Notes under the pieces: generated by a model
What the model was told of the DNA's origin: nothing
Seen by the model: only the letters and a program-made list of their open reading frames with translations
Databases searched by the model: none
Source of the DNA: Asaia bogorensis
Lineage (GTDB): Bacteria > Pseudomonadota > Alphaproteobacteria > Acetobacterales > Acetobacteraceae
Length of the DNA: 64,000 nt
Direction of reading: 5' to 3'
Assembly: GCA_945868845.1 (NCBI GenBank)
Contig: CAMBMS010000010.1
Location: 1 to 64,000, forward strand
Translations under genes and position numbers: made by a program
In this document: piece after piece, positions 28,405 to 62,940 of the stretch
Layout of the letters: each line of letters begins with the position of its first letter
Numbering within the stretch: position 1 is the stretch's first letter

Positions 28405-28887
28405 ATGGACCCCAGTCATAGTTTTGGCCCTGCGCAGGCAGGGTTTCATATTAGCGGTTCCGCACCAGCCGCGATCACCATCACTGAGCCGGCGTGGCGA
28501 CGCGTGATCAGGAACGCGGAAACCGTGGCGCGCCGCGCCGCTAAGGTCGCCCACACCGATGCCGCCATCATCCTCGCCTCCGACCAGGCGGTGCAAAAGC
28601 TGAATTTTTCTCATCGCGGCCGGAACAAGCCGACCAATGTGCTGACCTATCCCCCTTCCGGGTTTGGCGAGCGCGGGGAAATCGTGCTCGCGCTGGGCAC
28701 CGTGCGGCGCGAGGCCATCGCCGCCGGCCGCAGCCCGGCGCATCATCTGGCGCACCTGATCGTGCATGGCGCGCTGCATCTGGCCGGGCACGATCATCAC
28801 CATCCTGGCGATGCGCGCCGCATGGAACGCGCGGAGTCCCGCCTGCTGCACCGTATGCGTGTGCCCAACCCGTGGCGGAGCGTATGA
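28405..28887 (+). CDS. ybeY: rRNA maturation RNase YbeY
   Basis: 160 residues. The zinc-binding triad is intact: His121, His125 and His131 in HGALHLAGHDH, preceded by the conserved NKPTNVLTYP. YbeY is an endoribonuclease involved in 16S rRNA 3' maturation and ribosome quality control. The first 25 residues are not conserved in the family and could reflect a slightly upstream start. Follows phoH by 11 bases; its stop overlaps the corC ATG as ATGA. Confidence 0.93.
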   Translation: MDPSHSFGPAQAGFHISGSAPAAITITEPAWRRVIRNAETVARRAAKVAHTDAAIILASDQAVQKLNFSHRGRNKPTNVLTYPPSGFGERGEIVLALGTVRREAIAAGRSPAHHLAHLIVHGALHLAGHDHHHPGDARRMERAESRLLHRMRVPNPWRSV

Positions 28888-29771
28888 GCGGCGCCGGCAA
28901 GAATCCATTTCTGCATAAGCTGCGCGCGCGGCTCTGGCGGCGCGCACATGAACCGAGTGTGCGCGAATCCATCGCCGAACTGGTTGCAGAGGCTGCCGAC
29001 GCGCCGCAAGGCCCGGAGGATTTCCAGGAGCTGGACCGCCAGGAACGCGCGCTGATCGCCAATGTGCTGCGCCTGCGCGAGACCACCGCCGACGACGTGA
29101 TGATCCCGCGCGCTGATATCGTCGCCATCCGTGTCGATGTTACCCTAGAGCAGGCGTTGGAGCAGATCCGCAAGGAAGGCCATTCGCGGCTGCCCGTCTA
29201 TCGCGAGCAGCTCGATGACATTGTCGGCATGGTGCACATCAAGGACGTGTTCGCGCATGCGAGCCGGCCCGAAACCTTTGATTTGGAAACCATCCTGCGC
29301 CGCCCGCTGATGATCGCGCCGCAAATCCCGGTACTCGACCTGCTGCTGCAAATGCGCCAGGCGCGCATGCACCTCGCGCTGGTGGTGGATGAATATGGCG
29401 GTATCGACGGCCTCGTCACCATCGAGGACCTGGTGGAAACCATAACCGGTGATATCTCCGACGAGCATGACGAAATCGTCGGCCCGATGCTGACGGAACG
29501 CCCCGACGGCGACGTCGATGTCGACGCACGCCTATTGGTGGAAGCATTCGAACAACGTTTCGGCCCCACCCTGACCGAGGACGAGCGCGCCGCCGATATT
29601 GATACCATCGGTGGCCTGGTCTTTACCCTCGCCGGGCGGGTGCCGGCGCGCGGTGAGGTGATCGGCCATCCGGGCGGCATAGAGTTTCGCGTGCTCGATT
29701 CCGACCCGCGCCGCATCCGCCGTCTCCGCGTGAGGCCGAAATTCACGCCGGAACCGGCCACGGCTAGTTAA
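28884..29771 (+). CDS. CorC/HlyC family protein with paired CBS domains
   Basis: 295 residues from the ATG at 28884. No membrane helices. The order is a short N-terminal region, two CBS domains (about 60-185, including DDVMIPRADIVAI and ALVVDEYGGIDGLVTIEDLVE), and a C-terminal CorC_HlyC (transporter-associated) domain (about 205-288, with IDTIGGLVFTLAGRVP). Proteobacterial CorC is associated with Mg/Co efflux and RNA/ribosome genes in this conserved neighbourhood. The usual downstream apolipoprotein N-acyltransferase gene (lnt) is absent here. The last codons and stop form the left arm of a 36-base inverted repeat. Confidence 0.9.
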   Translation: MSGAGKNPFLHKLRARLWRRAHEPSVRESIAELVAEAADAPQGPEDFQELDRQERALIANVLRLRETTADDVMIPRADIVAIRVDVTLEQALEQIRKEGHSRLPVYREQLDDIVGMVHIKDVFAHASRPETFDLETILRRPLMIAPQIPVLDLLLQMRQARMHLALVVDEYGGIDGLVTIEDLVETITGDISDEHDEIVGPMLTERPDGDVDVDARLLVEAFEQRFGPTLTEDERAADIDTIGGLVFTLAGRVPARGEVIGHPGGIEFRVLDSDPRRIRRLRVRPKFTPEPATAS

Positions 29772-29888
29772 TCGCGCGCCGCCTGGGTGCGGGGAAGCTG
29801 AGGTAAGGTCGGGGGCTTTACCCCCAAACGTCGTTGCGCTCTTCAAACCCAAGCGGCGCGCGGTTAACTGGCCGTGGCCGGTTCCGGC
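29747..29888. repeat. 36-bp near-perfect inverted repeat spanning the corC stop
   Basis: Left arm 29747-29782 (corC last codons, stop, and 11 bases after) and right arm 29853-29888 are reverse complements with 34 of 36 positions matching. The 70-base loop itself contains a small G5/C5 hairpin at about 29811-29825. The size exceeds a normal terminator and no T run follows. It could fold as a cruciform or a long RNA stem in the corC transcript, just 40 bases before the next gene. Confidence 0.85.
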
Positions 29889-29927
29889 GATGTTTCTTCT
29901 TTGTCGTGCCCATGCTACCGGCGCGTC

Positions 29928-30608
29928 ATGCTGAAGCGTTTGCTCCGTCACCCGCGGGTTCTTGCCGTCATTGCCTGGATGATCGGGTTGTACCTGTATT
30001 TTGTGTTTCGTACCACGCGTTGGCGGATGGAGGGGCAGGAGCATTTTTCGCCGCATATCATCGGTGTGCCGCTGATCATCACTTTCTGGCATGAGCGCCT
30101 AGCGCTGATGCCGATGGCCTGGGCGATGGCGAGTATGTTGCCCGACAAGGTGACCCGCCCACGCGCTGTGTACGTGCTGGTCAGCCGCCATCGCGATGGG
30201 CAGTTCGTGGGCGCGATCATTCGCCGCTTCAACGTGGATGTGGTGCTTGGCTCCAGCTCCGCCGGTGGGCCAGGGGCATTGCGCGGGATGGCGCGTCTAC
30301 TCAAGGATGGCTGCTTTGTCGCCATTACCCCCGATGGCCCGCGAGGCCCGGCGCGACAATCGTCTCCGGGTGTGGCGCAGCTTGCCGCGTTGGCCGATGC
30401 GGTGGTGCTGCCCTGCGCGGCGCAGACCACGCGGCATTGGCGCATCGGTACTTGGGATCGGATGATCGTGCCCTGGCCGTTCGGGCGCGGCGTCATTATC
30501 TGTGAGCCCGCCATCCGCGTGCCGCGCGCCGGCTGGGAAGCCAGCCTGCCTGTTATCAATGCAGCGCTCGACGCGGCCGCCGCGCGGGCGGATGCGGCCT
30601 GCCAATGA
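29928..30608 (+). CDS. DUF374 lysophospholipid acyltransferase-like protein
   Basis: 226 residues from the ATG at 29928; the frame is open for 18 more codons but without homology. One N-terminal membrane helix (about 8-25) is followed by the DUF374 core: the ITFWHERLALMPMAW motif carrying the HxxxD-like His, VSRHRDGQFVGAIIRRF, and ITPDGPRGPARQSSPG. These proteins are relatives of LPLAT acyltransferases and typically sit beside Kdo transferase and lpxK, as here, so a role in lipid A or outer-membrane lipid assembly is likely. Its stop overlaps the waaA start. Confidence 0.85.
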   Translation: MLKRLLRHPRVLAVIAWMIGLYLYFVFRTTRWRMEGQEHFSPHIIGVPLIITFWHERLALMPMAWAMASMLPDKVTRPRAVYVLVSRHRDGQFVGAIIRRFNVDVVLGSSSAGGPGALRGMARLLKDGCFVAITPDGPRGPARQSSPGVAQLAALADAVVLPCAAQTTRHWRIGTWDRMIVPWPFGRGVIICEPAIRVPRAGWEASLPVINAALDAAAARADAACQ

Positions 30609-62056: not shown

Positions 62057-62193
62057 GTCCGCCTTTCTAGCAGTGCGCGGGCCGACGGCGAAGGATGTTT
62101 CACCATTTGCCGTCGAGAATGACTTACCGAAAACAAGGTTAGCGCTTTGTCGAGGCCTTGCTTCCGGCAGGCCATGCTCATCGAGACTCGGTA

Positions 62194-62940
62194 TCAGGGC
62201 CCATTGGCCAGGGCCAGCAGCGCTTGCCCGGTCAATAGGCTGGCCAGCACTGTGAGGGTGACTAGAGCCACGCGGCGATGCGTGTCGGGATTGGTACGGC
62301 GAAATCCAAGCGTGCCGAGCCATTGTCCCAGCAGGAGCGCGGGTAGGGCGATCAAGGCCCATAGCGTTGTCTCCCAGCTCGCCAGGCCACGCCAGGCCAT
62401 CGGGACCATGGCGGCGGCGGCAGTGAGGAAGAAATAGGAAATGGTAGAGGCCCGCATCACCTCCGTCGGGCAACGCAGGGCAAGGAAATACACCACGGCC
62501 GGTGGCCCGGCCATGGCGGCGACGCCGTTCATCACGCCGGAAATGGCGCCGACGAGCAGGGTGATCCAACGCGCTGGATGTTCCGGCAGGACCAGTCCGC
62601 GCCCCAGCAGCGCAATGGCGGCGAAGATCAGCAGGCCGATTGCCAAGCGTGCAGCGTCCGCGCTCATGTAAGCCAGCGCCAGTAGGCCGAGCGGGGTACA
62701 GACAACCATGGCTACGACCAGCCAGAGGATCGGGCGCCAGTCCGCCTGTCGCCATAACAGCGGCAGGTCGACCGCGCCGGTTAGTAATTGCAGGGTGACG
62801 ATGACCGGCACGAACTGCTGCGGCGGCATGGCGAGCGAAAGAACGGGCGCCGCGGCCATGGCCAGGCCAAAGCCGGTAAAGCCACGCAGCAGGCCGGCAG
62901 CAAAAATTCCCACGACCACGATCAGGGCGACCGCGGACAT
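62194..62940 (-). CDS. TauE/SafE (DUF81) family membrane permease
   Basis: 248 residues with about seven to eight helices. GFTGFGLAMAAAPVLSL near the N-terminus and the GAISGVMNGVAAMAGPPAVVYFLAL motif in the middle are the two repeated signatures of TauE/SafE sulfite/sulfoacetate exporters. The substrate is not predictable. Upstream of panC on the minus strand with a 137-base gap and downstream of the small barrel gene. Confidence 0.88.
   Translation of the reverse strand: MSAVALIVVVGIFAAGLLRGFTGFGLAMAAAPVLSLAMPPQQFVPVIVTLQLLTGAVDLPLLWRQADWRPILWLVVAMVVCTPLGLLALAYMSADAARLAIGLLIFAAIALLGRGLVLPEHPARWITLLVGAISGVMNGVAAMAGPPAVVYFLALRCPTEVMRASTISYFFLTAAAAMVPMAWRGLASWETTLWALIALPALLLGQWLGTLGFRRTNPDTHRRVALVTLTVLASLLTGQALLALANGP

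Follow-up and report, generated by a model that had tools for sequence, protein, structure and literature searches.

The window analysed here is a stretch of 64,000 nucleotides from Asaia bogorensis (Alphaproteobacteria; Acetobacteraceae). In it, a corC-like gene with CBS and CorC_HlyC domains is followed in the same direction by a gene of the DUF374 family, and an inverted repeat begins within the last codons of corC (Table 1). The arms of this repeat are 43 nt long, 40/43 complementary and separated by a spacer of 58 nt. An earlier note on this DNA described arms of 36 nt (29747-29782 and 29853-29888, 70 nt apart, 34/36 matching), which are the best portion of the longer arms; as that note stated, the last codons of corC and its stop codon (TAA at 29769-29771) lie inside the left arm, and the G5/C5 hairpin it saw in the loop is real (GGGGGCTTTACCCCC). 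The repeat ranks first in length and complementarity among the 10 inverted repeats listed for the 64-kb window, and its score of 34 compares with a best score of 15 in 30 mononucleotide shuffles of the window.

Table 1. Features at the 3' end of corC, in positions of the window.
Feature	Position	Strand	Basis
corC-like gene (CBS + CorC_HlyC)	28884..29771	+	ORF list; both Pfam domains above cut-off
Left arm of inverted repeat	29746..29788	+	repeat finder, 40/43
Left arm, outer 23 nt: corC codons outside the element	29746..29768	+	42-nt spacing to hairpin 1; extension score
Internally shortened element copy: left terminal repeat, hairpin 1, remnant	29769..29846	+	nhmmer and own-genome DNA match
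Hairpin 1, GGGGGCTTTACCCCC	29811..29825	+	sequence, recurrence in other copies
Right arm of inverted repeat	29847..29889	-	repeat finder, 40/43
Right terminal repeat, outer part	29847-29866		continues shortened element copy
Inverted copy of corC last codons, beyond the element, upstream of the DUF374 gene	29867..29889	-	partners of 29746-29768
DUF374 gene, downstream of corC, codirectional	29928..30605	+	ORF list; Pfam DUF374 E 5.8e-24

The earlier note held that lnt normally stands at this place, a view that the relatives do not support: with the lnt of this genome as the tblastn query, lnt was found in 0/80 relatives' corC loci, 62 of which span at least 2.5 kb downstream of corC, and a reading by displacement of lnt was rejected on these grounds. 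The search for lnt elsewhere that the note had proposed located the gene on contig C12 of the window's genome, where another inverted repeat, with arms of 35 nt around a loop of 20 nt, lies beside it (L134, 3278-3367). The adjacency of corC and the DUF374 gene was seen in this genome alone among 110 corC-match loci (tblastn), some of which are one locus fetched twice (e.g., L004/L039) and 29 of which (L004-L032) reach merely about 1.4-1.5 kb downstream of corC. Since the gene after corC differs among the relatives examined, this adjacency was rejected as evidence of a rearrangement at the repeat. Long inverted repeats of different make are found downstream of corC in other genera. An A/T-rich, AAAAAAGAACCAAAAAACTTT-like long inverted repeat, which looks like a different repeat family, occurs in several Acetobacteraceae corC loci (L071, 3932-4075; L081; L094, 2818-2971). 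In an Acetobacteraceae MAG (L067, 32-126), arms of 41 nt match perfectly around a loop of 13 nt.

The hairpin in the loop of the corC palindrome is part of a dispersed element. A complete copy of this element measures about 200-290 bp and carries five hairpins between terminal inverted repeats. With the copies printed in a common orientation, the order is hairpin 1 (GGGGGC...GCCCCC), hairpin 2 (AGGGAGCAGTGCTCCCT), hairpin 3, hairpin 4 and hairpin 5 (GGGTTCGGGGCAGAGCCCC), and the element is closed by AAGGTC/GACCTT. Hairpin 3 is a long stem in which pairing is kept while the sequence differs from copy to copy (e.g., L036, L034, L086). The terminal inverted repeats of full copies lie outside hairpins 1 and 5; they are degenerate and about 43 nt long (TGATACC...AAGGTC). 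When one full unit was used as the query, there were at least 27 matches in the window's genome (G000; 40/43 candidates scored) and at least 51 in the single same-genus genome compared (G001; 40/86 scored), matches that are not equivalent to copies, some being two parts or two strands of a single copy. The highest pairwise identity among 27 full copies is 71% (351 pairs), and by this measure the copies are old. A profile search found two further copies elsewhere in the window. One, at 46-111 on the minus strand, stands where the contig begins, and the repeat is probably what interrupted the assembly there. The other, at 62104-62202, is a weak, shortened copy with parts of both ends and little in between.

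The element has a characteristic position relative to genes. Among 48 flanking stop codons measured, one of them belonging to a miscalled frame at the window's copy, 23 lie 34-50 nt outside the element core and 10 at 42-44 nt. The first bases of the element are often the stop codon of the neighboring gene. By longest stop-to-stop frame, 34 copies lie between convergent (19), codirectional (9), divergent (4) or undetermined (2) genes; no weight is placed on this count, because it miscalls the window's copy, which is truly codirectional. We infer that the element probably provides a strong hairpin at gene 3' ends, acting in termination or in protection of the mRNA 3' end. No description of it was recognised in the open-access literature searched, where it is apparently undescribed, and plasmid searches returned no useful relative.

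The palindrome at the corC end very probably belongs to this repeat family. A profile built from the 27 full copies matches the window at 29784-29829 (nhmmer, E 1.1e-6 in 64 kb), and the full-unit DNA search matches it at 29805-29829 (E 1.6e-4). The G5C/GC5 hairpin together with the preceding 42 bases constitutes the left end of the dispersed element. The TAA of corC sits 42 nt before hairpin 1, and thus the window's element begins on the stop codon. Of the arms, the inner 20 bp therefore count as terminal repeat, and the outer 23 bp lie outside the element, in corC. Of the right half of this copy (hairpins 2-5 and the inner portion of the right terminal repeat), nothing or no more than 29826-29846 is left. 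The earlier note had read the palindrome as a snap-back replication or inverted-duplication scar. For the outer 23 bp an inverted duplication is still the best reading; the scar is not isolated, however, as a dispersed palindromic element ends on the stop codon of corC.

In a DNA comparison with 60 relatives, 15 of them, the same-genus genome among these, have part of the unit. In Acidisphaera sp. S103 (L086), a complete and closely similar element, whose hairpin 3 is a perfect 22-bp stem of unrelated sequence, abuts the corC stop codon, and at another locus (L117) a partial element follows corC; neither has an inverted corC copy. The site after corC therefore holds such elements in at least three genomes, and among corC loci with such elements, the gene-end copy is seen only in the window's genome. 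Because the same-genus genome lacks corC, the genomes compared include no closely related corC site free of the extension, and the event itself is unseen.

Comparison of the copies with one another bears on how the arms arose. Within a copy, the two arms align with a mean score of 15.4 (35 copies), against 5.9 between copies (1188 pairs), and 19/35 copies score above the 95th percentile of the between-copy arm scores. After a near-duplicate and a partial copy were dropped from these 35 rows, 33 entered a test of extension past the 43-nt end, in which five reach the 95th percentile of the controls and L191 alone is extreme. The extension scores of the window and of L191 are 21 and 22, against a 99th percentile of 10 for between-copy pairs. 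The control maxima (68 for arms and 38 for extension) presumably come from near-identical or orthologous pairs left in the set. Copying of gene ends across the element is rare. In L191 (from G001), about 24 nt of the last codons of the upstream gene, which we take to be histone-deacetylase-like, reappear in inverted orientation beyond the element, before the codirectional next gene. In L253, from another genus, the arms are 59 nt long and take in the upstream gene's TAG and the codons just before it, a weaker case of a gene-end copy than the window's, and in L130 a shorter run of about 12 nt spans the stop codon. The longest such arms seen (71 nt, with a 3-nt loop) belong to a copy in another genus (L243, 1437-1581; G015).

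Five element sites are orthologous between the window's genome and the same-genus genome, with flank identities of about 76-87%. Both flanks can be aligned at four of these. Relative to those flanks, three sites (L174/L208, L227/L201 and L231/L187) carry the interior in opposite orientation in the two genomes, and one (L232/L175) carries it in the same orientation. The remaining site (L120/L221) can be aligned by one flank, and its interior too is flipped. These flips match the prediction of inverted-repeat-mediated inversion. The evidence for homogenisation of the arms is mixed: quartet counts over the inner 45 columns at four sites, given as concerted to flank-wise, are 4:0, 3:1, 0:6 and 1:12, so that homogenisation appears supported at one site, weakly supported at a second and contradicted at two. 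Separately, three contigs of the same-genus genome (C59, C99 and C79) are 99.6-99.8% identical to the window's genome (L131/L212, L132 and L223), compared with about 76-87% in other orthologous stretches, either by cross-contamination or by recent transfer.

The explanation that best accounts for these observations overall, and that we consider fairly probable, is that an old element on the corC stop lost its interior and that the gene end was copied by template switching. A copy of an old dispersed multi-hairpin palindromic element starts right at the corC stop codon. Most of its interior (hairpins 2-5) is gone, as is the inner portion of its right terminal repeat, and hairpin 1 remains. A polymerase copying one arm would then have overrun the end of the element and carried the last seven codons of corC, or the opposite flank, to the other side, giving the outer 23 bp. 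Such a process would be template switching at a quasipalindrome, nucleated by the element, and its between-strand form would account for the flipped interiors at orthologous sites. Template switching between the arms of inverted repeats is described as homogenising arms and inverting spacers (PMC8604942) and as creating and keeping hairpins (PMC8794818). An element whose ends are self-complementary and which starts at a stop codon is well suited to such events. On balance, the outer 23 bp probably originated by template switching. Membership of the repeat family, the start at the corC stop, the inverted gene end and the flips are observed; that a polymerase switched templates, and which way it copied, is what we infer. 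A broader proposal, namely that a family of such elements on stop codons in Acetobacteraceae copies gene ends back and forth by repeated template switching and so acts as a set of flippable generators of new C-termini and inverted gene-end duplications, is speculative and rather doubtful.

The outer arms could instead have been made at insertion, if the element, in moving, duplicates its target in inverted orientation on its other side. The arms are indeed unique to each copy and yet match each other, and the window, L191 and L253 all contain the end of a neighboring gene. However, most copies have no similarity past the 43-nt end, and with a best identity of 71% there is no recent insertion by which to judge. 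Moreover, the REP-associated RAYT (Y1_Tnp) transposase family PF01797 was found in 0/2 genomes (G000, and G001 at 85% completeness), whereas the same search detected it in 5/14 control genomes. An origin at insertion is thus unlikely.

It is quite unlikely as well that the arms are kept and lengthened by compensatory change under selection for a hairpin in the RNA at the ends of genes. Such selection would suit the very stable fold predicted for 29740-29895 (-114.9 kcal/mol; z = -11.7 against 200 dinucleotide shuffles), the persistence of hairpin 3 as a long stem despite its changing sequence, and the arm mismatches of the window, two of three of which would be G-U in the corC transcript. Across copies, however, the outer arms contain 71 G:U and 71 A:C mismatches, and 13 hairpin-3 stems contain 7 G:U and 13 A:C, so that there is no skew toward G:U and no sign of RNA-level selection, a signal that frequent flipping could blur. 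In 12 loci with element copies, the sole Rfam match at gathering score was a tRNA outside the element (a search of the corC-end region gave only a match to mir-4867, judged to be chance), and a 40/43 match reaching into coding sequence would be hard to gain stepwise.

It is highly improbable that all 144 bp of the palindrome arrived as one element with a coding end of its own, from which the last codons of corC would derive. In many copies the element's end supplies or overlaps stop codons, and corC tails do vary among relatives; against this, the nearest tail (L059, PATAA and stop, compared with PATAS and stop in the window) lacks the arms. A 156-nt query covering the whole palindrome found no second copy in its own genome except its own reverse complement, and in 60 relatives it matched by the loop region alone, seven times, every match being in G001; no further copy of the outer arms turned up in its genome or in the 60 relatives. 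Finally, although the assembly is a draft of 49 contigs, an assembly or library artefact is extremely improbable, because there are three differences between the arms, two of them non-coding and the third synonymous (read from the sequence), unlike in an exact chimeric fold-back read, and the architecture is repeated in independent copies and genomes.

Several known systems share features with the element. Similar to REPs and BIMEs, it is a dispersed palindrome located at the 3' ends of genes that converge or run in the same direction. Stop codons are reported to be provided by REP termini (PMC3733652), and the element likewise lends stop codons to neighboring genes. Unlike REPs and BIMEs, it spans 200-290 bp with five hairpins within 43-nt terminal repeats; set against the REP unit (a 20-40 bp palindrome, in high copy and intergenic), its hairpins are short but part of this larger unit. 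GTAG and CGTC strings are present in some copies. According to the same source, CGTC REPs too lack an associated transposase, and CGTC repeats are reported there as missing from Acetobacteraceae (PMC3733652). Palindromic repeats as such have a precedent in this bacterial family, as a survey reports 1,369 REPs in Lichenicola cladoniae (PMC12306157).

MITEs and the palindromic elements of Rickettsia offer a second comparison, and Lichenicola cladoniae, just mentioned, is itself a species of Acetobacteraceae. MITEs are non-coding, multi-copy and have terminal inverted repeats; the element resembles them in these features, its own terminal repeats being degenerate and about 43 nt long, and it differs in that its copies are old (best identity 71%). 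Rickettsia palindromic elements insert into and touch coding sequence and bring their own coding part. The element is likewise a palindromic repeat that touches coding sequence, but the coding part here would be a copy of the local gene end rather than an inserted element. Two of the Rickettsia elements have been equated with CGTC repeats (PMC3733652).

If our reading is correct, the element would join, in bacteria, gene-end palindromic repeats with template switching that homogenises arms and flips spacers. Since each genome has dozens of copies, and some sites are orthologous between species, the family lends itself to measuring how frequently short inverted repeats flip and to asking if protein C-termini are rewritten by such events. 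It also carries a warning, in that long hairpins with apparent compensatory changes are not necessarily conserved RNAs. With the known template-switch systems, the element shares the similarity of arms within a copy and the flipped spacer. It differs from them in that switching would be nucleated by a dispersed bacterial element and extend into the last codons of a gene, and in that homogenisation has support at only one to two of the four orthologous sites.
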